NCBI RefSeq assembly: GCF_020181615.1
Contig: NZ_CP084029.1
Span: 1,923,397 to 1,987,396 of the forward strand
Reading direction: 5' to 3'
From: [Mycobacterium] crassicus
GTDB lineage: Bacteria; Actinomycetota; Actinomycetes; Mycobacteriales; Mycobacteriaceae
DNA length: 64,000 bases
The notes under the pieces: model-generated
What the model was told of the DNA's origin: nothing
The model's input: the letters and a program-made list of their open reading frames with translations, nothing else
Database searches by the model: none
Part shown: one piece after another, positions 5,703-64,000 of the stretch
Position numbering within the stretch: the stretch's first letter is position 1
How the letters are laid out: every line of letters starts with the position of its first letter
Program-made: the position numbers and the translations under genes

Positions 5703-5709
5703 GTTCCCG

Positions 5710-8263: not shown

Positions 8264-8842
8264 ATGTTGTCAACCAGTAATGACGAACAGGTGGATGTCG
8301 GGGAGCGAATCCTCGAGGCCGCCGCGAGCTGCCTGCTCGCATTGGGGGTCGAACGGGTGACACTGGCGGCCATCGCGCGTCGCGCCGGGGTCAGTCGCCC
8401 CACCGTCTACCGGCGCTGGCCCGACAGCCGGTCGGTGATCGCCGCGTTGCTCACCGCACGGGTCACCGACGCCTGGGTGCAGGCACCCGACTCGGGGACC
8501 GGGCGAGTGGCATTGGTGACGCGGATGGTCGCGGTGGCTGCGCGGTTGCGCCGCGACGAAGTGGTGATGCAGGTGCTGTATCACGCACCGGATCTGGCGA
8601 TGGTCTACATCGCCGAGCGGTTGGGCTCGAGCCAGCGGCGCCTGATCGACGTCGCGGAGGTCGAACTGGCGGCCGCCCAGGCTGACGGCAGCGTCCGGTC
8701 GGGGGATCCGCGCCAACTGGCCGCGATGTGCCTGCTGATCACCCAATCGACGATTCAGTCGGCACAGGTCGTGGCACCGATCCTGGGCGAAGACGCGCTG
8801 GCCGCCGAACTGACCTACACACTGAACAGGTACCTGTCGTGA
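8264..8842 (+). CDS. TetR/AcrR-family transcriptional regulator
   Basis: 192 aa. The N-terminal TetR helix-turn-helix is clear (ILEAAASCLLALGVERVTLAAIARRAGVSRPTVYRRWPD, split here over residues 16-54). The C-terminal ligand domain has no specific recognisable family. The position corresponds to Rv2250c. It is divergent from the FAD oxidase with only 17 bp between the starts and overlaps glpD1 by 4 nt, so it may control itself, the oxidase-kinase pair and glpD1. The start codon lies in an 8-bp palindrome ACATATGT, which is too short to call an operator. Confidence 0.88.
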   Translation: MLSTSNDEQVDVGERILEAAASCLLALGVERVTLAAIARRAGVSRPTVYRRWPDSRSVIAALLTARVTDAWVQAPDSGTGRVALVTRMVAVAARLRRDEVVMQVLYHAPDLAMVYIAERLGSSQRRLIDVAEVELAAAQADGSVRSGDPRQLAAMCLLITQSTIQSAQVVAPILGEDALAAELTYTLNRYLS

Positions 8843-10377
8843 TTGCCGATGCGGCCCTCAACGCCGCCCGCCGCACCGCCGAACTGACCGCCCTGGCCGA
8901 GGAGCCGGCTGTGGATGTCGTCGTGATCGGCGGCGGCATCACCGGCGTCGGCATCGCCCTGGACGCTGCCACCCGCGGACTGCGGGTGGTGCTGGCTGAG
9001 AAACATGACCTGGCGTTCGGCACCAGCCGGTGGAGCTCCAAGCTGGTGCACGGCGGCCTGCGCTACCTGGCGACCGGCAATGTGGGCATTGCGCGACGCA
9101 GCGCCATCGAACGCGGAATCCTGATGACCCGCAACGCTCCCCACCTGGTGCGGGCGATGCCGCAGCTGGTGCCGCTGCTGGGTTCGATGCCCCGGCGCGA
9201 CCGGGCCCTGGTGCGCACCGGGTTTCTCGCCGGTGACGCGCTGCGCCGGTTGGCGAACACGTCGGCGGCGGTGCTGCCCCGGTCGCGGCGGATCTCGCCG
9301 GAACAGGTCGTCGACCTGGCACCGACCGTTCGCCGGGACGGCCTCGACGGCGGGCTGCTGGCTTATGACGGGCAGCTGATCGATGACGCCCGCCTGGTGG
9401 CGGCGGTGGCCCGGACCGCCGCCCAGCACGGCGCGACGATCCTGACCTACACGGCGGCATCGGACGCCACCGCGGAGTCGGTGCAGCTGACCGACCAGCT
9501 GTCCGGGGAGACTTTCGGGGTCGCCGCGCGGGCCGTGATCAACGCGACCGGCGTGTGGGCTGCCGATCTCGACCCGGCGTTACGGCTGCGGCCGAGCCGG
9601 GGCACCCACCTGGTGTTCGACGCGGCCGCCTTCGGCAACCCGACCGCCGCGCTGACAGTGCCGATACCGGGCGAGCTCAACCGGTTCGTGTTCGCCATGC
9701 CCGAACAGCTCGGCCGGATCTATCTGGGGCTCACCGACGAAGAGGCTCCCGGGCCGATTCCCGATGTTCCGCAACCCACTTCGGCAGAAGTCTCCTTCCT
9801 GCTGGACACCGTCAACACGGCGTTGGGCACCGCGCTCGGCATCGGTGACGTCATCGGCTCCTATGCGGGCCTGCGGCCGCTCATCGACACGGGGGAGGGC
9901 CGCACCGCCGACGTCTCGCGCAACCACGCCGTCGTCGAATCGGAATCCGGGGTGCTCAGCGTGATCGGCGGCAAGCTGACCGAGTACCGGTACATGGCCG
10001 AGGACGTGCTGAATCGTGCGGTGCGATTGCGGGGGCTGGGGGCCGGACCCTGCCGGACCCGCGACATGCCGCTGGTCGGTGCGCCGGACAACCCCGGGTC
10101 GCCGGTGTCTTTGACAACTCACCTGCCCGAATCGCTGGTGCTGCGCTACGGCGCCGAGGCGGCCAACGTGGTCGCCGCCGCCACCTGCCGGCGGCCGGAA
10201 GAGCCGGTGGCCGACGGCATCGACGTGATCCGAGCTGAGTTCGAGTACGCGGTCAGCCACGAGGGTGCGCTGACCATCGAGGACATCGTGGATCGCCGGA
10301 CCCGGATCGGCCTGGTGGCCGCCGACCGGGAGCGTGTCGTCGAGGTTGCGCGCGAGTTCGTCCCTGCGGCCGGTTGA
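8839..10377 (+). CDS. glpD1: FAD-dependent glycerol-3-phosphate dehydrogenase
   Basis: 512 aa from GTG 8839, which overlaps the TetR stop by 4 nt. It oxidises sn-glycerol 3-phosphate to dihydroxyacetone phosphate and passes electrons to the quinone pool at the membrane. The FAD dinucleotide motif VIGGGITGVGIALDAATRG is near residue 25, followed by the family signature FGTSRWSSKLVHGGLRYL near residue 55; further conserved blocks are RGTHLVFD, RIYLGLTDE and VIGGKLTEYRYMAED. A C-terminal alpha-glycerophosphate oxidase domain is present (EFEYAVSHEGALTIEDIVDRRTR). Length and sequence agree with mycobacterial GlpD1 (Rv2249c position). It is the last gene of the conserved left block before the accessory region. 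Confidence 0.92.
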   Translation: MIADAALNAARRTAELTALAEEPAVDVVVIGGGITGVGIALDAATRGLRVVLAEKHDLAFGTSRWSSKLVHGGLRYLATGNVGIARRSAIERGILMTRNAPHLVRAMPQLVPLLGSMPRRDRALVRTGFLAGDALRRLANTSAAVLPRSRRISPEQVVDLAPTVRRDGLDGGLLAYDGQLIDDARLVAAVARTAAQHGATILTYTAASDATAESVQLTDQLSGETFGVAARAVINATGVWAADLDPALRLRPSRGTHLVFDAAAFGNPTAALTVPIPGELNRFVFAMPEQLGRIYLGLTDEEAPGPIPDVPQPTSAEVSFLLDTVNTALGTALGIGDVIGSYAGLRPLIDTGEGRTADVSRNHAVVESESGVLSVIGGKLTEYRYMAEDVLNRAVRLRGLGAGPCRTRDMPLVGAPDNPGSPVSLTTHLPESLVLRYGAEAANVVAAATCRRPEEPVADGIDVIRAEFEYAVSHEGALTIEDIVDRRTRIGLVAADRERVVEVAREFVPAAG

Positions 10378-10423
10378 GCCGAGCCGGAACGGAACTACGC
10401 CGTATCGACTAAACTGGCGCGGC

Positions 10424-11053
10424 ATGGGAACCGAGGGGTCCGCGCCCGTATCGCGCCCGAGCCGGAGCCCGGGCCGCCTCGATCGATCTCGTGACCCCGC
10501 CATCCTCGACGCGGCTCTGCAGGGTGTGGCCGAGGTCGGATATGACCGGCTGACCATGGACCACATCGCGGCCCGCGCCGGCGTCGGAAAGGCCGCGATA
10601 TACCGGCGCTGGCCGTCGAAGGCCGTAGTGGTCGCCGATGCCATCGCCCACTGGCGGCGGCGACAGGGGCCGGTCGAACCGCCCAACACCGGCAGCCTGC
10701 GCGGCGACATCGAGGCGCTGGTTGCGACGGCGCCTGAGTTCGATGAATCCGGCATGGACACAATGCAAGTCATTGTCGGCGTGGCGACAGCGGCGATGCA
10801 CAATCCGGTCCTGGCGGCCGCCCTTGACGACCTGGTGCTCGACCCGCCGCGTCACGTGGTCCGGGTACTGCTGGATCACGCGCTGGCGCGTGGTGAGATT
10901 CCGGCCGGCCGCGACCTGAGCCTGATTCCCGACGTCGCGTTGGGTCTCAACGTGCTGCGGGTGATGACCGGACGGCCGGTCGACCGGGTCTTCGTCCGGC
11001 GGGTGCTGGAAGACGTCATCCTGCCGCTGGCCGGCACCGCCCCCACACGCTGA
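10424..11053 (+). CDS. TetR/AcrR-family transcriptional regulator (candidate repressor of the flavin monooxygenase)
   Basis: 209 aa from ATG 10424. A TetR helix-turn-helix lies at about residues 26-66 (ILDAALQGVAEVGYDRL, then HIAARAGVGKAAIYRRWPSK), followed by a C-terminal domain of the TetR_C_16-like type found with many RRWPSK-type regulators. A TAAACT hexamer at 10410-10415 is placed eight bases before the ATG, which fits a leaderless -10 promoter. The open frame extends further upstream into glpD1 but is not needed. It is followed 37 bp later by a perfect palindrome and then a flavin monooxygenase gene, the typical arrangement of a local repressor and its target. Confidence 0.85.
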   Translation: MGTEGSAPVSRPSRSPGRLDRSRDPAILDAALQGVAEVGYDRLTMDHIAARAGVGKAAIYRRWPSKAVVVADAIAHWRRRQGPVEPPNTGSLRGDIEALVATAPEFDESGMDTMQVIVGVATAAMHNPVLAAALDDLVLDPPRHVVRVLLDHALARGEIPAGRDLSLIPDVALGLNVLRVMTGRPVDRVFVRRVLEDVILPLAGTAPTR

Positions 11054-11090
11054 GCGGTTGCACGGAGCGTCGACGCGTGCCACATTGGTT

Positions 11091-11116
11091 TAGACGGAAC
11101 TAATCAGTTCCGTCTA
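11091..11116. promoter_or_regulatory. Perfect palindromic operator, TetR type
   Basis: TAGACGGAACT (11091-11101), a 4-bp spacer AATC, and its exact reverse complement AGTTCCGTCTA (11106-11116). It lies between the TetR gene and the monooxygenase, ending 14 bp before the proposed GTG start, where a bound TetR dimer would block transcription or sit on the promoter. No other copy was noticed in the window. Confidence 0.75.
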
Positions 11117-11130
11117 GGGTGGAGGTGGCG

Positions 11131-12717
11131 GTGAACGACAGTCGAGTTCCGGTACTGATCGTCGGCGCGGGCGCCGCCGGGTTGACCACCGCCGCCCTGC
11201 TCGCCAAGCATGGAGTCCGGTCGCTGCTGGTCGAAAAGCGCCGGGAGACCTTCATCTACCCGAAGGCCCGCAACCTGAGCTTCCGCAGCCTGGAGATCCT
11301 GCGTGGCCTGGGCCTCGCCGATGAGGTGCACGCGGTTGCCGACGGGGTTTCGAACATGCTCACCAAACCGGCGCTCAACAGCACCGAAGTGCGGCAGGCC
11401 TTCGACGTCGACGCCATCTTCTCACCGTTCGACGGCCTGAGTCCCGAACCGTCAGGCCAGTACTGCCCGCAGAGCGCCCTTGAGCCCATGCTGCTGGCGC
11501 ACATCCGCCGGCACGACAGCGAGGTGCGCTACGGGACCGAGCTGTGTTCGTTCGAGCGGGACGAAACCGGCGTCACCGCCGTGGTGCGCGACCTGGATTC
11601 GGGTGACTGGGAGACCGTGCGCGCCGACTATCTGGTGGCCGCCGACGGCGTGCACAGTCCGGTCCGGGATGCCCTGGGAGTGCCGACCTCGGGCCACGGG
11701 GTGCTGCCGATCTACGTGGTGTTCATCTACTTTCGGGGGCCGTGGCGGCAATTCGCCCCAGAACTCGGTGACGGCGACGCGATCCAAGTCGACAACGACG
11801 ACGTGAACGGCATCATCCTGCCGGTACGCGGCGACTTCGGCATGCTGGTCACCACTTACGTTCCCGGCCGGGGGGAGCCGGCCGTGCAGTTCACCTCCGA
11901 GCGGTGCCGCGAGGTGCTCATCAAAGCGATCGGCGAGCCTATCGATGTGGAGGTGCTCGAGGCCACACCGTGGCAGCCCTACGAGCGGGTTGCAGACCAG
12001 TTCCGCTGCGGCAGGGTGTTTCTCGTCGGGGACTCGGCACACGCCATGCCCCCGTTGAAAGCAGGCGGCGCCAACTGCGCCATCCAGAGCGCACACAATC
12101 TGGCCTGGAAGTTGGCGGCGGTGCTGACCGGCATCGCCGGTCCAGGCCTGCTGGACACCTACCAGGCCGAGCGGCACCCGATCGGGCGATTCAGCGCACG
12201 CCAGTCGTTGACCGGGCCGTCGCTGCACCTGTTGCGGCTCGCTGACAGCGGACCGGGATTGCCCACCGACGAGGAGGCGCCGATGTTCGCACTGCTCATC
12301 GGTCACCAATACCGCTCGGCCGCAGTGATCTCCGACGAACCGGGTCCGGCTGACCCGGACGCAGTGGCCTTGGTGGCGGAGTTGCACGGTCAACCCGGCA
12401 CCCGGGTTCCGCATGTGTGGGTTGGTGCGCAACGGGTCTCGACGCTCGACCTGCTCGGGCCGGGCTTCTCGTTACTGATCGGGGCCGACGACGCACGCTG
12501 GCAGCGTGCCGCGTCGCGGGCGGCGACCGCTCTGAACGTCCCCGTGGCCGTACATGCGATCGCCGACGTCGGTTGGGCACGTGCCACCGGCCTCGCCCCG
12601 GAAGGGGCGTTGCTGATCCGTCCGGATGATTTCGTCGGATGGCGTGCCGATGCGCGGCCGACCGATCCCGAGGCCGAGCTGCAGCGGGTGCTGTCGGAGA
12701 TCCTCGCCTGCGGATGA
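11131..12717 (+). CDS. FAD-dependent monooxygenase (PHBH-type aromatic/polyketide hydroxylase)
   Basis: 528 aa from GTG 11131, chosen because GGAGG at 11121-11125 is at proper spacing; in-frame GTGs at 11119 and 11125 are too close to that site. Class A flavoprotein hydroxylase: GXGXXG in LIVGAGAAGLTTAALLA near residue 10, YLVAADGVHSPVRDALG (the DG motif) near residue 165, and the second FAD motif VFLVGDSAHAMPPLKAGGANCAIQ near residue 300 (split: GDSAHAMPP). The C-terminal ~130 residues form a thioredoxin-like extension usual for polyketide and phenolic hydroxylases. It would hydroxylate an aromatic or polycyclic substrate with NAD(P)H and O2. The palindrome upstream suggests substrate-induced expression. 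Confidence 0.85.
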   Translation: MNDSRVPVLIVGAGAAGLTTAALLAKHGVRSLLVEKRRETFIYPKARNLSFRSLEILRGLGLADEVHAVADGVSNMLTKPALNSTEVRQAFDVDAIFSPFDGLSPEPSGQYCPQSALEPMLLAHIRRHDSEVRYGTELCSFERDETGVTAVVRDLDSGDWETVRADYLVAADGVHSPVRDALGVPTSGHGVLPIYVVFIYFRGPWRQFAPELGDGDAIQVDNDDVNGIILPVRGDFGMLVTTYVPGRGEPAVQFTSERCREVLIKAIGEPIDVEVLEATPWQPYERVADQFRCGRVFLVGDSAHAMPPLKAGGANCAIQSAHNLAWKLAAVLTGIAGPGLLDTYQAERHPIGRFSARQSLTGPSLHLLRLADSGPGLPTDEEAPMFALLIGHQYRSAAVISDEPGPADPDAVALVAELHGQPGTRVPHVWVGAQRVSTLDLLGPGFSLLIGADDARWQRAASRAATALNVPVAVHAIADVGWARATGLAPEGALLIRPDDFVGWRADARPTDPEAELQRVLSEILACG

Positions 12718-12721
12718 GCGT

Positions 12722-13288
12722 CTACAGGTAGCGGCGGACCCGGCCGCAGTAGTCCGCATACTCCCGGCCGTAGTGCCCACGCATGAAGGCTTCCTCCCGC
12801 AGCACCTGACGGTTGAACAGCCACATCGCGGCCAGCAGGTAGATCAACGGAATCCAGCTGGGAAACACCAGGAACTCGCCGAGCAGCACCAGGCCGAATC
12901 CGACATAGATGGGGTTGCGGCTGATCGCGAACACGCCAGAGGTCACCAGCTTGTCCGGATGATCGGCGTCGATGCCGACCCGGAAACTGGTGCCGAAGGC
13001 GACCAGGCTCACCGCCACCAGCAGCAGGCCGGCGAAGCAGGATGCCACTCCGATCCACGCGATGGCAGCGGAGTCGAAGAACCGTTCGGAGCCGACCAGC
13101 GGCCAGCCGAAGGCCCCGGCGAAGATCGCGTAGAAGTAGATCAGTGCGAACGGCGGAATCAGGTAGTCCTTGTTGTCCATGCTCGCGAAATGCAGTCCGC
13201 GGGTTCCGCCGCGTCGCAGCACGATGAGGCGGGCGATGACCAGGATCGGGCACAGCGCGATCGCCAGGGTGGCCAGATAGGCAGGCAT
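12722..13288 (-). CDS. Membrane methyltransferase of the isoprenylcysteine carboxyl methyltransferase (ICMT)/PEMT-like family
   Basis: 188 aa integral membrane protein with about five hydrophobic segments (near residues 2-22, 44-64, 78-100, 120-137 and 145-160). The SAM-binding signature of the family is present: TSGVFAISRNPIYVGFGLVLLG, then a C-terminal EEAFMRGHYGREYADYCGRVRRYL, where the E and RVxRYL are conserved in bacterial ICMT-like enzymes. Substrate is unknown; bacterial members methylate lipids or small carboxylates. It converges with the flavin monooxygenase (4 bp between the stops). A palindrome lies 34 bp upstream of the start. Confidence 0.78.
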   Translation of the reverse strand: MPAYLATLAIALCPILVIARLIVLRRGGTRGLHFASMDNKDYLIPPFALIYFYAIFAGAFGWPLVGSERFFDSAAIAWIGVASCFAGLLLVAVSLVAFGTSFRVGIDADHPDKLVTSGVFAISRNPIYVGFGLVLLGEFLVFPSWIPLIYLLAAMWLFNRQVLREEAFMRGHYGREYADYCGRVRRYL

Positions 13289-53863: not shown

Positions 53864-53938
53864 GGGCGCGTAGCTCAGTGGTAGAGCTCTGGTTTTACAC
53901 ACCAGCGGTCGGCGGTTCGATACCGTCCGCGCCCACCA
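53864..53938 (+). tRNA. tRNA-Val (anticodon TAC)
   Basis: A 7-bp acceptor stem GGGCGCG/CGCGCCC, a D-arm beginning TAGCTCAGTGGTAGAGC, an anticodon stem CTGGT/ACCAG enclosing the loop TTTACAC (anticodon TAC), a T-arm with GGTTCGATACC, discriminator A and an encoded CCA at 53936-53938. It stands right at the left edge of the integrated element, so it is the probable attachment site. Confidence 0.95.
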
Positions 53939-54006
53939 GTGTTAATGCAGGTCAGACGTATATTTGAGGCTGACGATATAGCCCGCCCGGTTCGATGCGG
54001 CCTCGC

Positions 54007-54044
54007 AAGTTGCCAAGAAGTTGCCAGCCGTCCGGCAAGTTGCC
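54007..54044 (+). repeat. Three AAGTTGCC repeats between tRNA and integrase (arm-type site candidates)
   Basis: AAGTTGCC at 54007-54014, 54018-54025 and 54037-54044, all in the same orientation, with periods of 11 and 19 bp. Their position between the tRNA and the 3' end of the integrase is where the arm-type sites of tyrosine integrases or excisionase sites are found. One inverted copy, GGCAACTT, occurs at 61185-61192. Confidence 0.5.
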
Positions 54045-54069
54045 GCCGGCGCACCATGCGGCGGCGGGG

Positions 54070-55731
54070 TCACCCGAACAGCGCCGCGCTCGCCGCGCGC
54101 AGCTCGGCAGCCTTGGCGTCGGCGTAGATGGACAGCAGCACCGCCGGGTCGTGGCCGAGCCACGCGGCGACGACGTGCGGCGGGTGGCCCTGATCGAGCA
54201 TCAGCGTTCCCGCCGTGTTGCGTAGGCCGTGCAACTTGATCCGGCGCAGTCCCGCGCGAGCGCGTAGCCGCTGAAACTCATCGGTGTAGGACTCGGGCCG
54301 CAGCGGCTCGCCGTCCTCGCGCACCGCGATCAGGCGATCCTCGGACCATCCGCGACCGAGTTTCATCGCCTCGGTCTGCTGGCGCGTACGCAGCGCGCGC
54401 AGCGCCTCAGTTACGTCGGCCGGCAATGGCAGGTCTCGCCGAGACCGCCGTGACTTGGGGCCACCCTCGACGGTCTCGCCGCCGACGGCAACCCGGCCGC
54501 GCATGACCGACAGCGTGCCGCTATCGAGATCGACCGCGCTCCACCGCAGGCCGAGCACTTCCGACCGCCGCAGCCCGTAGCAGGACAGCAGCCAGCAAGC
54601 GACCAGGCGGTGATCGGCCACCGCGTCGCGGAACGCCTGGACCTCGGCCAGCGTCCATGATTTCGCCGTCGGCTCGGTGGCTGCGGCCGGTGCGGCGTCC
54701 GGGTCGGCGTCCTTGGGCCGCTCAACCAGCGCCATCACGTTGCGCGGTAGTACCCCCTGGTCGGCGTAGCTCTGGACCACCGCCCCGAACGTCGTCAGCG
54801 TCGAGCGCACCGTTTGCGGGCTGACGCCCCGCTTGGCGCGCTCGGCGCCGGCAGACGGCGGCGGGGGAGCGTAGACACCCCGGCGCACGCGCATCACGCG
54901 GCCGGATTTCAGCAGCGCCGCGAGGCATGAGTGAACATCACCGGGCAGTGCTGCGGTCAGCTCGGCGGCGGTGATGCCGTCGGGGTTCTCGGTCACCAGT
55001 GCGACCACCTGGCCCGCCAGCGAGCCGGCCCGGTAGTGCCTAGGTGAGGTGCGCGCCTCGGTCAGCATCCACTCGACCAGGCCATCACCGTCGGCCTTGG
55101 TGAGCTGCTGCAATTTCTTGGCGCCGAGGTAGCGCCGGACCGGTTTCAGGTCGTTCTCGTAGCTGTACGCCGTCACCTGCCGGATGCCGCGCCGGCCGGC
55201 CAGCCATTCGTCGCACGCCTCGTCAACGGTCAGCGAGGTGGGACGGTTGTAGGTGCCGGCCGCGACCTCGCTGGTGATGCGGCGCAGCTCGCGGCGCGCC
55301 TCGGCCTTGGTCCGGTACGTGAACTTGCGGCGGTCGCGGCTGCCGTCGGGTTTGGTGCCCACGTCGGCCTGAAACCAATAGCTCACGGTGCCGTTGCGCG
55401 CGGTGTGCGTGTTGATCGGCTCGGCGCGGCGGGTCCGTTTGGACTGCTCACCGTCGGTGCCCGGCTGGCGGTCCACCGGTGGCGGCGTGGCTGTTTCAGT
55501 CGCAGTGTCGCCGGCGCTTCGCATCTGACGGTCGGCGGGTGCGGTCACGCGCGCCAGCTCGGCGTCAACCCATTCCGCTGGGACGCGGACCCGACGACCA
55601 TCGCGGATCACCGGGCACTGCTCGGTCTTGATCCACCGTTGCACGGTGGCGGCGTCGACACCGAACCGGTCGGCTGCCTGGCCGGGTGTGAGCAGTCGCG
55701 GACCCGCTGGCTGATTGGTGGTGGTGGTCAT
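54070..55731 (-). CDS. Tyrosine-type site-specific integrase with N-terminal HTH and inserted winged-helix-like segment
   Basis: 553 aa from ATG 55731 (GGAG eight bases upstream; ATGA overlap with the upstream gene). Domains: residues about 12-58 an excisionase/MerR-like helix-turn-helix (LLTPGQAADRFGVDAATVQRW); about 115-180 an arm-binding AP2-like region; about 185-370 the SAM-like core-binding domain, interrupted by a segment of about 70 residues (VALVTENPDGITAAELTAAL ... GRVMRVRRGVYAPPPP) that looks like a winged helix; about 385-545 the catalytic domain with Arg in CYGLRRSEVLGLRW, HGLR in KLHGLRNTAGTLM, AWLGHDP, and the Tyr in LLSIYADAK. It should integrate and excise the element. The normal family length is about 380-400, so the extra domains are notable. 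Confidence 0.9.
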   Translation of the reverse strand: MTTTTNQPAGPRLLTPGQAADRFGVDAATVQRWIKTEQCPVIRDGRRVRVPAEWVDAELARVTAPADRQMRSAGDTATETATPPPVDRQPGTDGEQSKRTRRAEPINTHTARNGTVSYWFQADVGTKPDGSRDRRKFTYRTKAEARRELRRITSEVAAGTYNRPTSLTVDEACDEWLAGRRGIRQVTAYSYENDLKPVRRYLGAKKLQQLTKADGDGLVEWMLTEARTSPRHYRAGSLAGQVVALVTENPDGITAAELTAALPGDVHSCLAALLKSGRVMRVRRGVYAPPPPSAGAERAKRGVSPQTVRSTLTTFGAVVQSYADQGVLPRNVMALVERPKDADPDAAPAAATEPTAKSWTLAEVQAFRDAVADHRLVACWLLSCYGLRRSEVLGLRWSAVDLDSGTLSVMRGRVAVGGETVEGGPKSRRSRRDLPLPADVTEALRALRTRQQTEAMKLGRGWSEDRLIAVREDGEPLRPESYTDEFQRLRARAGLRRIKLHGLRNTAGTLMLDQGHPPHVVAAWLGHDPAVLLSIYADAKAAELRAASAALFG

Positions 55732-56306
55732 CGGATCTCCGATCCCTCGGTGCTGGTGCTGGTGCTGGTGGCCCAATCGCGGGGTAGGAACTTGCGCCGC
55801 TTGGCCTCGGCTATCCACCGGTCGACGGTGGGCACCGAGACCGGTTTGAACTGCTCGCGCACGAAATCACGCGGTGGCTCACCGATTTCGCGTGCCCATA
55901 GCAACAGTCGCGCGACCTGGCGATAGTGAACGTCATCGAGCTTGCGGCCGCTGCGGTGGTCAGGGCGCTCTAGGTCGGTCGCGTCGTAGACATCGCCGGC
56001 CACCCCGACGCCGCGCTCGGTGAGCGATACGAACCGGGCGGCAGCCTTGGTGAGGCGGCGCACCGGCACCGCTCGGATGGTCGCCGGGTCAATCTCGGCG
56101 ATGTCATCGCCCGGTACGAGGTGAAGCTCGACCAGGCGAGGGACCGGCCCGCTGCTGTCGATCCGCACCCGATAGCGGTGCGGGTGGCCGACAAGGGCCA
56201 GCTCAATCAGCCCGTTGTCGCTGCCCTTGCGTCCGCTGACGCGGCGGGTGTGTTCGGGGATGACATCGCCCTTAATGGCGTCCATGTCGGGGTTATCACC
56301 GTCCAT
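55728..56306 (-). CDS. Element-encoded putative DNA-binding protein
   Basis: 192 aa from ATG 56306, six bases after TATCGT (leaderless-type promoter). Upstream in-frame codons are excluded because they cross the divergent excisionase start. Middle region is a compact domain (HPHRYRVRIDSSGPVPRLVELHLVPGD, shortened here to its ends HPHRYRV and HLVPGD); the C-terminal part has VSVPTVDRWIAEAKRRKFLP, a helix-turn-helix-like segment seen in actinobacterial phage and island proteins. It ends in a Ser-Thr repeat encoded by a (GGTGCT)n microsatellite at 55751-55770. It is translationally coupled to the integrase; a role in integration control is inferred. Confidence 0.7.
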   Translation of the reverse strand: MDGDNPDMDAIKGDVIPEHTRRVSGRKGSDNGLIELALVGHPHRYRVRIDSSGPVPRLVELHLVPGDDIAEIDPATIRAVPVRRLTKAAARFVSLTERGVGVAGDVYDATDLERPDHRSGRKLDDVHYRQVARLLLWAREIGEPPRDFVREQFKPVSVPTVDRWIAEAKRRKFLPRDWATSTSTSTEGSEIR

Positions 56307-56374
56307 GCAAAGACGATAGCACGATAATAGCGAATTGCCTGGACAACTATCGCTGATTCCGACAGTGTGGACGC
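56307..56374. promoter_or_regulatory. Divergent control region of the element (int side / xis-replication side)
   Basis: 68 bp between the divergent regulator-integrase and excisionase-primase transcripts. It is AT-richer than the surroundings and holds related motifs CGATAG (56317 region), AATAGCGA and ACTATCGCTGATT, which are inverted with respect to each other across about 14 bp. This looks like an operator region for the lysogeny-type switch of the element. Minus-strand -10 TATCGT is contained in it. Confidence 0.5.
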
Positions 56375-56596
56375 ATGGCCCACATGACAACCACGACCAC
56401 CACCGCGACCGCTGACGACCTGCGCGCCGAGGGGATCACGACCGGAGTCCCGCGCGCTGCCGAATACCTCGGAGTCAGTAGGGCATTCGCCTACGAGATG
56501 GCAAAGAACGGCACCTTGCCCACGATCAAGCTCGGCCCTCGCCGGGTGCGGGTGCCCACCGCAGCGCTGGCGGACATGCTCGGCGTCGAGCTGTAG
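56375..56596 (+). CDS. Excisionase-like helix-turn-helix protein
   Basis: 73 aa (ATG 56375; a second ATG at 56384). After a Thr-rich N-terminus it has the MerR/excisionase helix-turn-helix: GVPRAAEYLGVSRAFAYEM followed by GTLPTIKLGPRRVRVPTAAL, the standard binding-wing pattern of the HTH_17 family. Such proteins act as excisionases or directionality factors, or as regulators of the replication module. It is divergent from the integrase operon and starts the plus-strand operon. Confidence 0.82.
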   Translation: MAHMTTTTTTATADDLRAEGITTGVPRAAEYLGVSRAFAYEMAKNGTLPTIKLGPRRVRVPTAALADMLGVEL

Positions 56597-56703
56597 CGGC
56601 CACCGGCCCGCGAAACCACCGGCCGCACAACAGAAAACGGTGCCGCCCCGCAATTTTCACCGAGCGCGGGGCGGCACCAACCGAGACGTAAGGATCACCG
56701 CAC

Positions 56704-59481
56704 GTGACCCAACAGGGCCAGAATACCCCGCTGCTGGACACCCGCACCGAGTTCGCCGAACTGCTGGAACTGCTCGGCATCGGTGCCGATGAACGGGTCT
56801 CGGTCTGTTCGCAGAAGCCCGGCGGGCGTTTCGAGGCCGTGATACCCGTCAACCGGGGCGATGCCGAGGCGGTGGCGCTGTCGACGCCCTACGCCGGCGC
56901 GCGCGATGTGTGGTTCGGCGTCAATCCGGTTGCACCGCCCGAGGGTTACCGGGGTCGGGGCACCGTCGAGCATGTGGCCCGGTGCTCGGCGCTGTTCGCC
57001 GATGTCGACCTCAAGGCGGGCGGCGTCGCTGACCCCGATGTCGCCGACGCGGTGTGCAATGCCCTCGCTGCCGCCCTCGGGCAACCGCCCGCCGCTGTGG
57101 TGTTCAGCGGGCACGGCGGACACCCGTATTGGACGCTCGACGCCGACGACCCCGCGTGGACGCTCGACACCGAGGCCAAACGCGGCGCCGCCGTGGCGAT
57201 CTTCCGGCGGTTTCATCGTCTCTGCGCCGATGTCGCCGCCCGTTTCGGCGGGCGGGTCGACAACGTGGGGGAGCTGTCGCGGGTGCTGCGCGTGCCTGGC
57301 ACCTACAACCGCAAAAACCCCGGCGCCCCGATCCGCGTCGAGCTGAGGGCGTGGCCCTACGGCACCGGCGGGCCGCTGACGTTCGCCGAGGTGGCCGAGG
57401 CGCTGGACGCCTACGGGGTGCCCGAGCAGCCCGAGGACCACGAACACCTCGGCGCGGTGGTCAGCGAGCCCGCCGGCTGGCAGTTCGGCGCCGAGACCGA
57501 TCCGTACGTCGCGGCGATGGTTGCCGGCTGGCCGGATGACCTGCCGGCTGCGCGTCACGGCTGGCTGACCGGCCAGGCCGTGCGGCTGGCCTGCGCTCGC
57601 CGGCTCGGTCTCATCACCGAGGCCGACCACGCCGAGGCCGTCGGGCTGCTCGGCGAGCGGTTCGACTGGCTGCTGACCCACCACGGCCAGCCGCGCAAGC
57701 CGACGCCGGCAAACGAGGTCGCATCGGCGCTGACATGGGGGATGCAACGCGCCGCGACGTTTACCGACGACCGCGCCGCCCGTGACCTCGGCGTCACTCT
57801 GTTGTCGTCACTCGCGGTCGATCACGGCGCCGGCATCGCCTCGGGCGCTTCACACCTGACGGCCGACCAGGGCAACGGCACCGACGGCAGTGCCGGTACC
57901 GATGCCGACGGCGACGACGCCAAGATGCCCGGTCAGGCGAGGTTCACCGATGCCGGCCTGGCCGAAATCGTCACCGACAAGGCGCTACGTGGGCGGTTCC
58001 TCAATGCGCGGGGTCTGGGGTGGCTGCACTGGACCGGGACGCATTGGCGCGAGTCTGGCGACGGTCCGCCGACCGAGGCGGTGCGTCGGTTCGTCATCGG
58101 GCGTATGCGGCTATTCGCCCGCAAGCTGGCCGCTAACCCGGCCGACGGCGATCTGCTCGACGCCATCGAGGCATGGAAGAAGGTCGCCAGCGCTGCGCGT
58201 ATCGCGGCCGTGCTCAAGCTGGCCGGCAACCTGATCGAGGTCGACGCCGACGCGCTCGACGCCGACCCCGACGTGCTGAACACCCCGAGCGGTGTTGTCG
58301 ACCTGCGGACCGGCGAGCTGCACGCGCACGACCCCGCGCGGTTGATGACCCGCATCACCGCCGGTGCTTATCGGCCCGGCTACCATCACCCCGACGTAGA
58401 CCAGGCCCTTGCGGCGCTGCCCGAGCCGGAACGTGGGTGGTTCCAGCGCCGGATCGGGCAGGCGATCACCGGCAGGCCGACCCCCGACGGTGTGGTGCCG
58501 CTGCTCTATGGCGGTGGCAGCAACGGGAAATCGGCCCTGTCGACCGGTGGTCTGGTGCCGGCGTTCGGCGGATACGGCCATGTGGCCTCGCACAAGCTGA
58601 TTACCGCCGACAAGGGCAACGACCACAGCACCGAACGGGCCGACCTGCGCGGGCGCCGGCTGGTCGTCGGCGAGGAGCTGACCGAGGGCCGGTCGCTGGA
58701 CATGACCGCGATCAAACGCATCATGGATACCCCCGTCATCACCGCGCGCTACTGCCGCCAAGACAACATGACCTTTGCGGCGACGCACTCGCTGTTCATC
58801 AACACGAATTACCGCCCGATCATCACCGAGACCGACCACGGAACGTGGCGGCGGCTGGCGCTGCTGCCGTTTCCGTACACCTACCGGACGACCGAGGCCG
58901 AGATCACCGACCCGGCAACCGAGTTCGTCGGGGATGCCACGATCAAAGAACGGATCAAGGACGGTGCCACAGGCCAGCATGACGCCCTGGTGACGTGGGC
59001 AGTCGACGGCGCGGTGGCCTGGTATGCGAGCCCCGAGACCGCACTGCTGCCCACGGAGACGGTCAAGGCGGCGACACTGGCATGGCGGGCCGATGCTGAC
59101 CGCATCCTCGGGTACTGGACCGAGCGGTTGGTGGCCGACCGTGACGGGAAGGTGCTGGCAACCGAGCTGCTGGCCGACTTCAATCGGTGGCTGACCGAGA
59201 ACGGCCACCGCGAATGGTCGAAAGAGACGTTCGGGCCGAGATTCGAGAACCACCAGGAAACCCACCGCAACGGTGTCGAGCGGGGCAAGCCGCGCAGCCA
59301 CGACGGGCTGTCACGGCCACAACTGGCAAACGATGCGTTCGGCACCATCGCCCCGCCCATCAAGGGCCGGCCCTGGCTGTGGCTCGGCGTCCGGTTCCGT
59401 ACAGACGCCGATGATGCGGCCGACGAACTGCGCCGCGCGCCCGAGGGTCATCGGCCTACGCATGAGGACGTGATGCTGTGA
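56704..59481 (+). CDS. Bifunctional primase/SF3-type helicase (phage/plasmid P4-like D5 family)
   Basis: 925 aa from GTG 56704. N-terminal half: an archaeo-eukaryotic-type primase region with LFADVDLKAG (metal-binding DxD, about residue 97) and VVFSGHGGHPYW (about 135; SxH motif), and RVLRVPGTYNRK near residue 198. C-terminal half: D5_N region, then a helicase with Walker A LLYGGGSNGKSAL (about 600), Walker B RLVVGEEL (about 655) and sensor-like HSLFINTNYRP (about 700). P4-type proteins of this build initiate replication of satellites and plasmids from a nearby origin. The 88-bp inverted-repeat region lies just downstream. Confidence 0.9.
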   Translation: MTQQGQNTPLLDTRTEFAELLELLGIGADERVSVCSQKPGGRFEAVIPVNRGDAEAVALSTPYAGARDVWFGVNPVAPPEGYRGRGTVEHVARCSALFADVDLKAGGVADPDVADAVCNALAAALGQPPAAVVFSGHGGHPYWTLDADDPAWTLDTEAKRGAAVAIFRRFHRLCADVAARFGGRVDNVGELSRVLRVPGTYNRKNPGAPIRVELRAWPYGTGGPLTFAEVAEALDAYGVPEQPEDHEHLGAVVSEPAGWQFGAETDPYVAAMVAGWPDDLPAARHGWLTGQAVRLACARRLGLITEADHAEAVGLLGERFDWLLTHHGQPRKPTPANEVASALTWGMQRAATFTDDRAARDLGVTLLSSLAVDHGAGIASGASHLTADQGNGTDGSAGTDADGDDAKMPGQARFTDAGLAEIVTDKALRGRFLNARGLGWLHWTGTHWRESGDGPPTEAVRRFVIGRMRLFARKLAANPADGDLLDAIEAWKKVASAARIAAVLKLAGNLIEVDADALDADPDVLNTPSGVVDLRTGELHAHDPARLMTRITAGAYRPGYHHPDVDQALAALPEPERGWFQRRIGQAITGRPTPDGVVPLLYGGGSNGKSALSTGGLVPAFGGYGHVASHKLITADKGNDHSTERADLRGRRLVVGEELTEGRSLDMTAIKRIMDTPVITARYCRQDNMTFAATHSLFINTNYRPIITETDHGTWRRLALLPFPYTYRTTEAEITDPATEFVGDATIKERIKDGATGQHDALVTWAVDGAVAWYASPETALLPTETVKAATLAWRADADRILGYWTERLVADRDGKVLATELLADFNRWLTENGHREWSKETFGPRFENHQETHRNGVERGKPRSHDGLSRPQLANDAFGTIAPPIKGRPWLWLGVRFRTDADDAADELRRAPEGHRPTHEDVML

Positions 59482-59509
59482 GCTGCGGAGATATTGCCTA
59501 CGCAGGGGG

Positions 59510-59597
59510 GTGGTCCATGTGGTCCGACACCTCCTGTTAACCCCTAGAAAATTCCTCGCGTAATGCTTATCCGAAGGTGTCGGACCACATGGACCAC
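59510..59597. other. Perfect 23-bp inverted repeat with 42-bp AT-richer loop: candidate replication origin
   Basis: The left arm at 59510-59532 (starting GTGGTCCATG and ending GACACCT) is the exact reverse complement of the right arm at 59575-59597. Each arm holds two TGGTCC hexamers 9 bp apart, giving four copies in a symmetrical iteron-like arrangement. The 42-bp spacer is AT-richer (GTTAACCCCTAG, AAAATTCC, TAATGCTTAT). It lies 28 bp after the helicase stop and before the next gene. An origin, a site for a dimeric initiator or a packaging site are the possibilities; a simple terminator is less likely with such a long loop. Confidence 0.65.
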
Positions 59598-59683
59598 TAC
59601 CCGCAACCGGCCGGTCAGCCGTCGGTGCGGTGGCGGTGGCAGCAAACCCCCGTGCGGCGTGTCCCCCGGACGGTTGCACCGTG

Positions 59684-59703
59684 TGCGTACAGGATTGCGT
59701 ACA
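59684..59703 (+). repeat. TGCGTACA direct repeat at the start of the packaging-type operon
   Basis: TGCGTACA at 59684-59691 and 59696-59703, with a 12-bp period, just before and touching the ATG at 59703. The whole stretch also has partial dyad symmetry (GTGCGTAC ... GTACATGCAC). Candidate operator controlling the genes that follow. Confidence 0.45.
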
Positions 59704-60230
59704 TGCACGTGATGCCGTTGACCGATTCCCGAGCCCGCGCCGAGCGGGCGTTTCTCCTGCGCTCGATAGGGCGATCTTGGCGCGAGGTTGCGGCCGAACT
59801 CGGCTACAGGTCGCGCAGCGCGGCACAGGTCGCCGTAGAGCGGCACATGGCCCGCAACCGGCCCGAGTCGCCCGAGCTGACCCGAGCGCAGGCGGTGGCA
59901 GCAGCGAGGGCCACTCACTCGATTCTGTTCGACCGGTTCGCCGCTGCCGTCGAGCGTGAGGACGACAGCACCGCCGCCGTGTTGTCGCGTGAAATGGTCC
60001 GCAACCGTGACCAGCTCGCCAAGCTGACCGGTGCGTATGCGCCGGCACGCGCCGAAGTCAGCCACGACGTTTCCGGCCTGACAGGGCCGGCGCTGGCCGA
60101 GGCGATCCGCACCCGCGCGCTGGAACTGCTGCCGGCCGCTGCCATTAACGCCGGCCCCGGCGCCGAGGTGATCGACGCGGAGCTGGTCGCGGCGCCAGCA
60201 CCGACCCCGACCGAGGAGACCGCCCGATGA
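59703..60230 (+). CDS. Putative terminase small subunit / helix-turn-helix phage protein
   Basis: 175 aa from ATG 59703 (another ATG at 59712; the longer frame from 59577 would start within the inverted repeat). N-terminal helix-turn-helix: ERAFLLRSIGRSWREVAAELG followed by SRSAAQVAVERHM. The remainder is helical (ARATHSILFDRFAAAVERED and REMVRNRDQLAKLTGAYAPA), like small terminase subunits and phage proteins that precede TerL in actinophages. It would recognise the packaging site. It has an ATGA overlap with the next gene. The assignment rests on the pattern and gene order only. Confidence 0.6.
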   Translation: MHVMPLTDSRARAERAFLLRSIGRSWREVAAELGYRSRSAAQVAVERHMARNRPESPELTRAQAVAAARATHSILFDRFAAAVEREDDSTAAVLSREMVRNRDQLAKLTGAYAPARAEVSHDVSGLTGPALAEAIRTRALELLPAAAINAGPGAEVIDAELVAAPAPTPTEETAR

Positions 60231-60655
60231 CCGACACCGCCGTGACCGCCGAGGATGCGGTGAACGCCGCCGCCGACCTGATTGCTGGCCTGACCTCGGG
60301 CACCCTGGCGCCGGCCGATGTACAGCGGCGGGCGGTCGACACTGCCCGCGAGCTGTTCGGCGTCGTCGGCGCCGGCCCGGCTGATCCGCTGTGGACGTTG
60401 CACGGCGACGTAGCCCGGCAGTACCTCGCCACCGGCGGCGTCGGTGCGGCCGAGCTGGTGGAATGGCTGGCTACTCAGCGGCGGCGTGAGGGCATCACCG
60501 AGCCCGAGCCCGCCAACAGTCCGCCGCCGGCGGTTTCGTCCGCCAGCGGCGCGCAGGGGGTCGGGAACGGGCAGCCCAACGCCGAGGCGCTGGCCCTGGC
60601 CCTCACTGACACCGAGGGCGACGCCGGCGCCGAGGTGGTGAGCGGCGATGCTTGA
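60227..60655 (+). CDS. Hypothetical element protein
   Basis: 142 aa, ATGA overlap with the preceding gene and 8-nt overlap with the next. The N-terminal ~90 residues are helical and Ala-rich (AEDAVNAAADLIAGLTSGTL, VEWLATQRRREG); the C-terminal ~50 are low-complexity (Pro, Ser, Ala, Gly). No recognisable family. Being in tight series with terminase genes, it likely belongs to the same function or regulates it. Confidence 0.65.
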   Translation: MTDTAVTAEDAVNAAADLIAGLTSGTLAPADVQRRAVDTARELFGVVGAGPADPLWTLHGDVARQYLATGGVGAAELVEWLATQRRREGITEPEPANSPPPAVSSASGAQGVGNGQPNAEALALALTDTEGDAGAEVVSGDA

Positions 60656-61106
60656 TCCCGAGACCGGCGAGCCGTACCGGCCGTGCCGCCCTCACCCCTC
60701 GCGGGCGGTGTGCCACGTCGACACCTGCGGATACGCCGACACCGTTGACGGACGGCTCTCGACAGCCGGCCGGCGAGCCCTGATGAAACACCTTGAGGCG
60801 GGACGCGAGCCCGAGCCGACGCCGCCCGGTCACTGCGACTGCCGGCGCTGCCGTGACCGTGGCCGCGATCCGTTGACGCCGGCCGAGATTGACGCCGTAC
60901 AGCATCACCTGACCGACCGGCTCGCGGTGTTGTTTCTGTTGAGCTACGCGGTGTACGACGGGTGCGAAATCTGTCCGCACTGCGGCGAACTGTTCGCGGT
61001 GTTCGCCGACCGCGTAGACACGCGGGGTCTCATCGCCTCGGGCGGCTGCCCCTATCACGGTCAGCACGCTGGTAGCCCGCTCGGTCTCGGCGATAGCGAT
61101 GGCTGA
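60648..61106 (+). CDS. Cys-rich, putative zinc-binding element protein
   Basis: 152 aa. Nine or more Cys arranged in pairs: CRPHPSRAVCHVDTC at the N-terminus, CDCRRCRDRG in the middle, CEICPHCGEL (about residue 110, a CxxCxxC zinc-ribbon-type knuckle) and a later CPYHG with His. It probably folds around one or two zinc ions and may bind DNA or another protein. The family is not recognised. It overlaps both neighbours by 8 nt, so it is a real part of the operon. Confidence 0.68.
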   Translation: MLDPETGEPYRPCRPHPSRAVCHVDTCGYADTVDGRLSTAGRRALMKHLEAGREPEPTPPGHCDCRRCRDRGRDPLTPAEIDAVQHHLTDRLAVLFLLSYAVYDGCEICPHCGELFAVFADRVDTRGLIASGGCPYHGQHAGSPLGLGDSDG

Positions 61107-61362
61107 CCGTCGTCGCCGGGCTGTTACTGATGTGGCTGATGTGGCGGCGGGTCGGCCGCGATACCGGTCGGTTGGCAATGTCTTGGCAACTTGGCGCCGA
61201 CGAACCGGCCGGCGACACAGCCAAATTGAAGCATCGTCGCAGGTCAAGGCGACAATACTGACGCCTCACCAAACCTGCGACCGGTTGATAGCCGATCAGG
61301 TCCGCAACGGTTTCACGCTCGGAACGGCGTTGACGACGACGACACGGGAGACCCGCCGATGA
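61099..61362 (+). CDS. Small hypothetical element protein
   Basis: 87 aa, basic and Arg/Thr-rich, starting at an ATG that overlaps the preceding stop by 8 nt and ending in an ATGA overlap with terL. No recognised domain. The close packing supports it; composition (many Arg, low hydrophobicity) and the presence of a GGCAACTT motif at 61185 that might be a DNA site leave room for doubt. Confidence 0.5.
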   Translation: MADRRRRAVTDVADVAAGRPRYRSVGNVLATWRRRTGRRHSQIEASSQVKATILTPHQTCDRLIADQVRNGFTLGTALTTTTRETRR

Positions 61363-62879
61363 CCACGACCGCAACCCCGGACGCCGACGGCCACCCCGCG
61401 CGCTGGCCGCGCGCCTTGATCGACCTCGACGCGCTGGCAGCGTCCCGCCGGCGTCAGCGCCCAACGACCCCGACCGCCCTCGGCCGGCGGCTGCTCGGCA
61501 CCCGCTACCGCACGACGCCGGCCGTGGCCCTGATCGGCGCGGCGGTGGCCGACGCGATCAGCCAGCCCGACGCCCGGCTGATTGTGACCGTGCCACCGCG
61601 CGAGGCGAAGTCGACCACGGTCGCCGTCCTCGGTACCGTGCTGGCCCTGGCGACCGACCCCGACGCCGAGGTGATCCTGGCGAGCTATGCCGACAACCTC
61701 GCCCATGAGCACAGCGCCCGTGCGCGAGCCCTGATCGCCGAGCACGGCGACGACCTCGGTATCCGGCTGGCCGACGAAAAAACCGCCGTCGGCCGGTGGC
61801 GCATCGCCGGCCACCGGGGCGGGCTGCTGGCAACCGGCATCATGGCCGGCATCACCGGCAAGGGCGCTGACCTGCTGATCCTTGACGACATCGTGAAGAA
61901 CGCCGCCGAGGCCGACAGCGACGCGCATCGCCGGCGGGTGCTGGCCGAATTTCGCGGAACGCTGATGACCCGCGTTCACCCCGGCGGGTCGGTGGTCATC
62001 ATCGGTACTCGCTGGCACCCCGACGACCTGATCGGGCACCTACTCGCCACCGAGCCCGAGCGGTGGGAACACCTGAACATCCCGGCGGTGGCCGAGGCCG
62101 GCATACCCGACGCGCTGCACCGCCCGCCCGGCCAGACGATGACCAGCACCGTCGGCCGGTCGCCCGAGCAGTTCGCCGACCTGCGCCGGTCCCTCGGTGA
62201 TCGGAGCTGGTACGCCGAATTTCAAGGGGTGCCGAACTCGCCCGAGGGCAACCTGATCCGCTCGACGTGGCTCGATTCATGGCGGCTGCCCTCGGCCCCC
62301 GTCGCGCCTGCGCTGACCGTCGTCGGCGTCGACCCGTCCGACAGCGGCGAGGGTGACGCGGCCGGCATCGTCGCGGCCAGCCTGACCCGTGACGGCGTGG
62401 TCGCGGTGATCGCCGACCAGTCGGCCCCGATGACCTCGGATCAGTGGGCACGGGCCGCTATCGAGCTGGCTATGAGCACCGGCGCCAGTGAAATCGCCAT
62501 CGAGGCATTTACCGCGCGGGCCACCTACGAGCGGGTTGTGCGCGAGGCGATGGCCCGCTACGACCTGCCACACCCGATTCGCGTCACGACGTGGCCCCCC
62601 AAGGGCGAGGGCGGCAACCGGGGTGATGCCTTGGCCCGCTCGGCTGCGCTGCTACAAGCGTTCGAGGTCGGTACGTGCCGGATCGCCGGCCACCTGCCGG
62701 AATTTGAACGGCGGGCCGTGACCTGGCAGGCCGGCACGCATCAGCCCGACGCCCTCGCTGCGCTGGTGGTGGCCCACGACGTGCTGATCCGCTCGGCCGG
62801 CTCACGCCTGACGTTCGGTGTGCCGGTGTCCGACCCGGTGAGTCTCGCGGCGTACCTCGGTCGACGTGTGAGCGGCTGA
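61359..62879 (+). CDS. Phage terminase large subunit
   Basis: 506 aa. ATPase domain: Walker A-type VPPREAKSTTVAV (about residue 78-90) and Walker B DLLILDDIVKN (about 170-180), with the coupling motif VVIIGTRWHPDDL (about 208). C-terminal RNase-H-like nuclease with acidic residues in VVGVDPSDSGEGDAAGI (about 320), IAIEAFTARATYERV (about 380) and HQPDALAALVVAHD (about 470). These are the full set for a working DNA-packaging motor. The gene is intact and overlaps the previous one by 4 nt. No capsid genes follow. Confidence 0.88.
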   Translation: MTTTATPDADGHPARWPRALIDLDALAASRRRQRPTTPTALGRRLLGTRYRTTPAVALIGAAVADAISQPDARLIVTVPPREAKSTTVAVLGTVLALATDPDAEVILASYADNLAHEHSARARALIAEHGDDLGIRLADEKTAVGRWRIAGHRGGLLATGIMAGITGKGADLLILDDIVKNAAEADSDAHRRRVLAEFRGTLMTRVHPGGSVVIIGTRWHPDDLIGHLLATEPERWEHLNIPAVAEAGIPDALHRPPGQTMTSTVGRSPEQFADLRRSLGDRSWYAEFQGVPNSPEGNLIRSTWLDSWRLPSAPVAPALTVVGVDPSDSGEGDAAGIVAASLTRDGVVAVIADQSAPMTSDQWARAAIELAMSTGASEIAIEAFTARATYERVVREAMARYDLPHPIRVTTWPPKGEGGNRGDALARSAALLQAFEVGTCRIAGHLPEFERRAVTWQAGTHQPDALAALVVAHDVLIRSAGSRLTFGVPVSDPVSLAAYLGRRVSG

Positions 62880-62989
62880 TGCGGGGGCGATGCCGTGAGG
62901 AGTACCAGCAGGTTCTCGCCGCACGCGCCGAGCGTGACCCCGATGTGCAAGCACGTAAAGAACTGCGACGGTTAGGAATTGACGCATGA
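62879..62989 (+). CDS. Small basic peptide gene after terL
   Basis: 36 aa (MRGRCREEYQQVLAARAERD and a further 16 residues), whose ATG overlaps the terL stop by one base. The helical, charged composition fits a phage-type protein, perhaps a fragment of a longer gene. Too short to classify. Confidence 0.4.
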   Translation: MRGRCREEYQQVLAARAERDPDVQARKELRRLGIDA

Positions 62990-63338
62990 CGATTACGGCG
63001 CGACCCGCGACGAAGTGCGGATCGAGACCGGGAAACGTGACGGGAAACGCCAACAGCAGCGTCGCCGGTTCGACAAACTGCAGGACGCCATCGACGCCTA
63101 CAACGGTGAGCGCGGCGACCGGTCCCGCGGCGTGCAGGTGACACCAACGAGTGTCACATTGAGGCAGGCGGTCGATGCCCACCTCAACGCCCTAGCCAGC
63201 GCGGCCCAACACCGTCAGCTGTATCAGGAGGAGTTGGCTGCCCGCGACCGCGGCGAGACGCTGCCGCCGGGCCGGGCACGATGCCCGATTGGCCGCCGGC
63301 CGAGTAACCCGCCCAACACGGGTGGGGCCGTGGTGTAA
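62979..63338 (+). pseudogene. Integrase-like N-terminal remnant at the right edge of the element
   Basis: An open frame of 119 codons with only a TTG start (62979) and a stop codon directly upstream. The translation has GKRDGKRQQQRRRFDKLQDA and SVTLRQAVDAHLNALA, which resemble the arm-binding and core-binding beginning of tyrosine recombinases, but it ends without any catalytic domain in a low-complexity Arg/Pro tail. Most likely a truncated integrase from an earlier or tandem insertion. It could alternatively be an intact small element protein. Confidence 0.4.
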
Positions 63339-63446
63339 CCGGAAACGACGCCGCCGGCCGTGCAACACGGGTGCCGCTGCAGCGTGTTGGCCGGGTGTGC
63401 AGCAGGGCTTGGGGCCGTGCTGGATGGTTGCGCCGGGAGTGGGTGC

Positions 63447-63806
63447 TCAGCGCCGTTGACGTGATTGCGGTGATGAATCGCTGTCGTCGGCAGCCCTGCG
63501 CAGGGCAGTGTTGGCGTCTTCGAGGTGCAGGATGCGGCCGATGCCGGCGATGTTCACTCCAGCGGCGACGAGGGTGATGATCCGTTCGACGCGGGCGAGG
63601 TCATCGGCGCTGTAACGGCGGGTGCCGCCGTCGGTGCGTGCCGGGGATAACAGGCCGTGGCGTTCCCAGAGGCGCAGTGATTGTGTTGGTGCACCGGATA
63701 ATTCGGCGGCCACCGTGATCCCGTAGACGCCTCGGTTCGCAGCTGGGGGTCGGTCCCCGCGTAACGGGTCGGGCAGGTGCATGCCATTGTCGTCGTTCGC
63801 GTCCAA
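63447..63806 (-). CDS. MerR-family regulator, HspR-like
   Basis: 119 aa. The MerR DNA-binding domain is clear: GVYGITVAAELSGAPTQSLRLWERHGLLSPARTDGGTRRYS (positions about 27-67, given here as landmarks YGITVAAEL and TRRYSADD), followed by a short helix VERIITLVAAGVNIAGI. It resembles the heat-shock repressor HspR rather than metal-sensing MerR: no metal-binding Cys and a short C-terminus. Divergent from an Hsp20 gene with two palindromes between them, it probably controls that gene and itself. The 3' end marks the first host gene to the right of the element. Confidence 0.8.
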   Translation of the reverse strand: MDANDDNGMHLPDPLRGDRPPAANRGVYGITVAAELSGAPTQSLRLWERHGLLSPARTDGGTRRYSADDLARVERIITLVAAGVNIAGIGRILHLEDANTALRRAADDSDSSPQSRQRR

Positions 63807-63889: not shown

Positions 63890-63934
63890 GAACGCACAGA
63901 TGGCAAAGTGAAAGGACAGACGGAGGTGGCCACG

Positions 63935-64000
63935 ATGCTGATGCGGACCGACCCGTTTCGGGAATTGGACAGGTTCACCCAGGAGGTTTTGGGGACCGCG
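63935..64000 (+). CDS. Hsp20/alpha-crystallin family protein, 18-kDa-antigen type (start only)
   Basis: The first 22 codons are present; the gene runs off the right edge. ATG 63935 follows GGAGG at 63922-63926. MLMRTDPFRELDRF is the typical N-terminus of the mycobacterial 18-kDa small heat-shock antigen. The alpha-crystallin domain is outside the window. The regulation by HrcA and the MerR protein is inferred from the operators upstream. Confidence 0.85.
   Translation, partial: MLMRTDPFRELDRFTQEVLGTA

Follow-up and report, generated by a model that had tools for sequence, protein, structure and literature searches.

The DNA examined here (the window, 64,000 nucleotides of the [Mycobacterium] crassicus contig NZ_CP084029.1) carries near its right end an integrated element that is probably a partly decayed member of a family of phage satellites. 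Its integration target is a tRNA-Val (TAC) gene at 53864..53938 on the forward strand, recognized by ARAGORN and Rfam, which overlaps the first copy (attL, 53894..53944, +) of a perfect 51-nt repeat. When the tRNA end was compared at the DNA level with the host genome, the second copy, attR, was located at genome positions 1990323-1990373, which is coordinate 66927-66977 when the numbering of the window is continued (L098:14323-14373; L098 is our number for this locus). The element thus spans window position 53894 to coordinate 66977, or 13,084 bp including both repeats, and its right end lies 3.0 kb beyond the window end, so that the window cuts the element. The preliminary description of this DNA had placed the right border at 63446, a boundary that we rejected because attR was found farther out. 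The att repeats, together with an integrase, indicate discrete integration of the kind expected of a phage satellite. In a relative (genome G413, L123) the site is empty: tRNA-Val is followed, 13 nt on, by a gene that is found 2.4 kb past attR in the M. crassicus genome, and this further 2.4 kb also differs between the two genomes.

The integrase, a tyrosine recombinase with an N-terminal helix-turn-helix (HTH), is encoded on the reverse strand at 54070..55731 (longest open reading frame, ORF, to 55818; PF00589, 1.4e-17; phrog_1, 1.7e-49) and has homologues in all five other elements compared. Beside it on the same strand is orf220 (55728..56306, longest ORF to 56390), a conserved element gene without an assigned function, which has relatives in four of those five elements, one of them at 28%, and no family match in Pfam, PHROG or NCBIfam. 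On the forward strand there follow an Xis/AlpA-like HTH protein (56375..56596; PF12728, 3e-9; TIGR01764, 1.3e-9), a P4-family primase/D5 helicase (56704..59481; TIGR01613, 1.8e-41; phrog_2478, 7.5e-142), and an HTH and helical-hairpin protein resembling small terminases (TerS-like; 59703..60230; phrog_645), whose role as a small terminase is putative. Its partner gene, orf142 (60227..60655, +; phrog_27872), also occurs in T46-type prophages, and is succeeded by orf152 (60648..61106, +), a Cys-rich protein present in some relatives, and by orf87 (61099..61362, +), a reading frame with no relatives detected that may not be a gene. The large terminase, TerL, is encoded at 61359..62879 (+) and was assigned by profile (phrog_38, 1.9e-85), tree and motifs. 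After orf119 (62979..63338, +), which likewise has no detected relatives and may not be a gene, come an HspR-like MerR regulator (63447..63806, -; PF13411, 6.6e-17) and the start of an Hsp20 gene (63908..64000, running on to coordinate 64426, +; L098:11304-11822; PF00011, 2.3e-20); the position of attR makes both of these cargo inside the element. The compact order of integrase, xis, D5/P4 primase-helicase, TerS-like and TerL genes, as originally described, was confirmed by ORFs and profile matches, and the ORF coordinates likewise show the 4-nt and 8-nt overlaps that join the frames at 59577-62879.

The gene called TerS in the preliminary description does encode a TerS-like HTH/hairpin protein, but its longest ORF (59577-60230) overstates its length, as its homologues place the start at 59703, not 59577, and its sole match, phrog_645, is labelled "RNase E". 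We rejected an RNase E identity for this protein, as the name is a PHROG label that no Pfam or NCBIfam family accompanies. In a second look, the fold matches of its predicted model were mostly two-helix hairpins. The gene is fast-evolving and its dN/dS signal is not clear; the product may select DNA for packaging.

TerL scores above the cut-off for the PF family Terminase_6N and has the ATPase and RNase-H-like nuclease motifs of a large terminase, with the Walker-A glycine changed. The earlier view that all of its motifs are intact holds for Walker B and the three nuclease motifs, which match those of relatives, but not for the GKS glycine of Walker A, which is alanine. Selection was estimated by NG86 (some YN00 estimates failed), and TerL dN/dS values of 0.034/0.252 (L039/L041), 0.034/0.233 (L032/L034, two loci in one genome) and 0.248/0.676 (L098/L056) show that TerL is under purifying selection. 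A separate observation concerns L073, where the TerL ORF of 874 aa has an insert in the ATPase motif that ends in HN before S and, by eye, resembles the inteins of phage TerL proteins.

Profile searches with ten proteins of the region returned no portal, capsid or tail family, in line with the reported lack of such genes, but a fragment of a gene resembling those for capsid pentamers (family F8) lies past the window end. This remnant, at coordinate 65422-65649, corresponds to the C-terminus of F8 (best match in tblastn with F8 queries 36 residues, 58%, 8.6e-6). Also beyond the window is a gene of family F2, characterized by a HEAGH motif, whose homology begins upstream of every start codon of its frame and whose N-terminal-like piece lies in a different frame; F2 is therefore frame-broken. 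These two genes contradict the description of the element as neat and free of broken frames. The hspR-hsp20 pair and DNA without recognized genes occupy the place that in L064, L066 and L068, which share the TerL position of the window copy, is taken by families F5-F7-F8 or F7-F8.

TerL relatives, counted at E <= 1e-20, are present in 36 of 401 Mycobacteriaceae genomes. When 45 loci were compared with the head genes of phage Dori and prophiT46-2, ten had a portal, protease or major capsid protein (MCP) match and 35 did not, although some of these 35 capsid-less loci are on short contigs and two or more regions occur twice (L035/L046, L031/L058). Of 49 loci, 13 have TerL between exact repeats of at least 22 nt, 12 of them capsid-less (the thirteenth, L075, was excluded as a phage), while most other loci do not extend to both element ends. 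Ten of the 12 repeat-bounded capsid-less elements, including the window copy, are 13.1-16.8 kb in size, and the other two are 6.9 and 6.1 kb. The integration sites include tRNA-Val, -Pro, -Leu and -His genes; L068 has a serine integrase and a site that is not a tRNA gene. One genome (G342) has two such elements, L058 and L066.

Gene clustering identified a recurrent set comprising int, xis, a replication gene of one of several types, F3 (the phrog_645 TerS-like protein), F4 (orf142), F6 (a small serine resolvase), F5, F7, F8, F9, F2 and F10/F18; TerL stands at the end or in mid-element. Among 34 capsid-less loci, many of them truncated where the contig or the flank stops, F2 was found in 27, F3 and F4 in 22 each, F7 and F5 in 20 each, F6 in 16, and F8 and F9 in 13 each. 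In the stretches compared of eight portal-type loci, by contrast, F3 and F8 were each found in four and F4 and F6 in two, with none having F2, F5, F7 or F9. The resolvase follows the TerS-like/orf142 pair in L031, L033, L035, L036, L048, L055, L062, L068 and others, as it does in the portal-type loci L052 and L067. In L061 and L062, TerL is at the far end, in the opposite orientation to the remaining element and beside a second F5 copy.

Of the 172 predicted proteins of the 12 elements, we also scanned 136, from 11 elements, against PHROG, matches to the window integrase, TerL, primase and orf220 and all proteins of L106 having been removed. No portal, major capsid or tail family was among the 25 families inspected of the 87 matched, and ten of the largest unassigned proteins gave no portal or capsid family and one weak holin match (E 0.0074). 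Within the limits of these scans, the 11 elements have an incomplete set of virion genes, with no portal, protease, hexamer MCP or tail gene found. Cargo of defence type in the family includes matches to bSEFIR (1.2e-62), a PDC-S59 ATPase (3.4e-24) and type II restriction-modification models. L064 has a further cargo pair (L064:4468-6107), in which a short protein is coupled with one of HTH/metallopeptidase type and which by eye has the look of a toxin-antitoxin system.

The TerL tree (42 rows) was midpoint-rooted and so does not show the direction of change. In its 35-row branch (100/100), 29 rows are capsid-less loci and the other six are portal-bearing phages, which form one nested group (100/98). 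The window TerL groups with those of L056 and L066 (100/100), L066 being on a long branch. The capsid-less label requires two changes on this tree, compared to a mean of 11.3 in shuffles, none of 500 of which was as low. A continuation of relatives into a full head-tail module, which the preliminary description named as evidence for a deleted prophage, was not found for the nearest, L056 and L066; the distant TerL relatives Dori and T46-2 do adjoin head genes.

The F8 protein has an HK97 fold in its predicted model and, in one case, shares 54% identity with a phage protein labelled "major capsid pentamer protein". Its placement rests on this predicted fold, as the attempt to place it in the PDB by sequence gave nothing. 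Its NG86 dN/dS is 0.052/0.224 (L039/L041), and on a poorly resolved F8 tree of 20 rows the capsid-less label again needs two changes.

F7 was found in 26 of the 401 Mycobacteriaceae genomes, a few of these matches being weak or in pieces, and in one of 298 genomes of the order, a genome of the same genus. Nine more loci were taken from genomes with an F7 match and no match to the window TerL. Eight of these (L112-L119) have F3, F8 and F2 and gave no TerL, portal or MCP match. F7 itself was not called in L113, and L114 and L119 seem to be duplicates of a single element; in L120, the remaining locus, F7 stands alone. The existence of this sister class indicates that TerL is a module and not the definition of the family. 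Elsewhere in the window, GC content is about 0.60-0.67 in 13001-34000, compared to 0.67-0.73 in 1-13000, possibly reflecting another island.

Based on these results we consider, with a probability of roughly 0.7, that the window element belongs, in partly decayed form, to a phage-satellite family of the Mycobacteriaceae with its own motor, a TerS-like protein and, in part of the family, a capsid vertex protein. The original proposal of a phage satellite is supported at the level of the family, by recurrent att-bounded elements of 13-17 kb, a TerL lineage, purifying selection and defence cargo, but not in its wording of a complete, neat and capsid-less element. The att sites, gene content, recurrence, homology, predicted fold and selection come from the sequence analysis, as does the failure to detect a portal or hexamer gene; helper dependence, motor function and small capsids are what we infer. 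Intact members would use a tyrosine, or in some cases a serine, integrase to enter the chromosome, mainly at tRNA genes, be excised with Xis, and replicate by their own primase/helicase upon helper phage infection or induction. The hexamer capsid protein, protease, portal and tail would have to be supplied by a helper, whose capsid is most likely of the Dori/T46/Rosebush type, and TerL and the TerS-like protein would pack satellite DNA through the helper portal. Where present, the pentamer may steer helper capsomers into shells of reduced size, of T=3 to T=4. The window copy has kept int, xis, replication, TerS-like and TerL genes and lost the pentamer gene, and would be wholly dependent on helper shells if mobilized.

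Small heads in members having F8 would be favoured by analogy with SaPIbov5 Ccm, a capsid homologue reported to fill pentamers and to change the heads of phi12 from prolate to T=4 (PMC8569155). For Rosebush, a relative of LizLemon, the head is described as T=9 and the genome as 67.5 kb (PMC7150772), and scaling volume as T^1.5 from this head gives about 20 kb at T=4 and 13 kb at T=3, which brackets 13-17 kb. It is equally possible that four to five copies are packed head-to-tail in a full head, and for members without F8, including the window copy, this would be the simpler route.

Several observations weigh against the satellite reading. The TerL P-loop is PPREAKST, the glycine before KS being alanine in the window copy and L056 and serine in L066, and the eight TerL-less loci suggest that TerL may be dispensable. 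F8 is confined to part of the family, having been found in 13 of the 34 capsid-less loci with gene calls (e.g., L066) and as a pentamer homologue in four of the 11 elements scanned; the name "pentamer" is a GenBank label, and no solved chain in the PDB matches F8 by sequence. The window element itself is partly decayed and has lost its own pentamer gene. Lastly, no Dori-type MCP (in a search without a positive control) and no PF04860 portal (a model that the portal of Dori-type phages may not match) were found in the host genome, so that no resident helper is seen there, and the idea of a Dori-type helper in the same genome was rejected.

The decay could also mean that the element is the remnant of a satellite in which TerL and the other phage genes are disused, the island being kept for its hspR-hsp20 stress genes. 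This is rather unlikely, yet it would account for the pentamer scrap, the frame-broken F2 and the replacement of F5-F7-F8 by the hsp genes, and elsewhere TerL is found almost or entirely without the remaining genes of the element (L059, L063, L071); against it, open frames remain for int, xis, the primase, the TerS-like protein and TerL, and the att copies are identical over 51 nt. Broken genes would likewise fit the remnant of a 60+ kb Dori/T46-type prophage stripped of its head, tail and lysis genes, and phages of the T46-2/Dori type do have homologues of TerL, the TerS-like protein, orf142 and the pentamer. A lone deleted prophage is nevertheless improbable, because 35 of 45 TerL-relative loci are without Dori/T46-type portal or capsid genes and att-bounded sizes recur: many elements of 13-17 kb at different att sites share one gene set, F7, F5, F9 and F2 were found in none of the eight portal-type loci in the stretches compared, and the distribution of the capsid-less label over the TerL tree is far from random shuffles.

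Two further possibilities concern what TerL does. It might mainly interfere, by occupying the helper portal or cutting DNA, while the helper motor packs both genomes; the retention of pentamer and TerS-like genes in the TerL-less class and the replaced Walker-A glycine in the subclade of the window copy would agree with this, whereas the conserved Walker-B and nuclease motifs and the low dN/dS of TerL make it quite unlikely. More tentatively than for the satellite family as a whole, and at somewhat less than even odds, we suggest that the family is a new satellite class that replaces the helper's vertex and motor, members with both genes supplying their own pentamers and TerL so that helper hexamers would close into a small shell around satellite DNA. 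Such a lineage would be modular, with members having TerL only, pentamer only or both, and the window element would have slid from both to TerL only.

As far as the definitions in the sources go, the family fully fits none of those for capsid-forming phage-inducible chromosomal islands (cf-PICIs), Staphylococcus aureus pathogenicity islands (SaPIs) or Mycobacterium candidate PICIs. SaPIs have their own TerS and use the TerL of the helper; in the window element, the TerS-like protein occurs alongside an own TerL. The cf-PICIs encode head and packaging genes (PMC10690885), and both they and the Streptomyces satellites MulchRoom/MiniFlayer resemble the family in carrying a large terminase; they also have a small one, but are described there as encoding MCP, portal and other head genes. 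In the present family no own MCP, protease, portal or connectors were found. A survey of Mycobacterium defined candidate PICIs by an integrase and an MCP gene (PMC10654092); these, including the phiRv1/phiRv2-like elements, are similarly integrated, often tRNA-borne and in some cases equipped with terminase and helicase genes, but no hexamer MCP was found in our family, and a definition of that kind would miss it. Dori and prophiT46-2 have TerL proteins 57-58% identical over 78-84% of the query and a pentamer homologue, and prophiT46-2 also has TerS-like and orf142 homologues; unlike the satellites, both phages have portal, capsid protease, hexamer MCP and tail genes, in records of 64.6 and 65.3 kb. 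A search of titles and abstracts of Creative Commons-licensed PMC literature, with the gene content of virion-encapsidated integrative mobile elements (VEIMEs)/tycheposons outside its scope, found no description of satellites with TerL but without capsid or portal. If true, a satellite that has its own motor but borrows portal and hexamers would stand between the SaPI-like and the capsid-forming kinds and would offer a direct test of motor/portal mixing between elements. The closest parallel to its vertex protein is the SaPIbov5-type cos PICI, an integrated satellite whose HK97-fold capsid homologue, Ccm, is reported to form pentamers and redirect capsid size (PMC8569155). The present family differs in carrying TerL, in the phylum of its host, and in having a pentamer homologue in 13 of 34 loci, the window copy retaining a C-terminal remnant only, with a vertex role that is predicted; it may nonetheless provide a second case, outside the staphylococci, of capsid redirection by a pentamer homologue.
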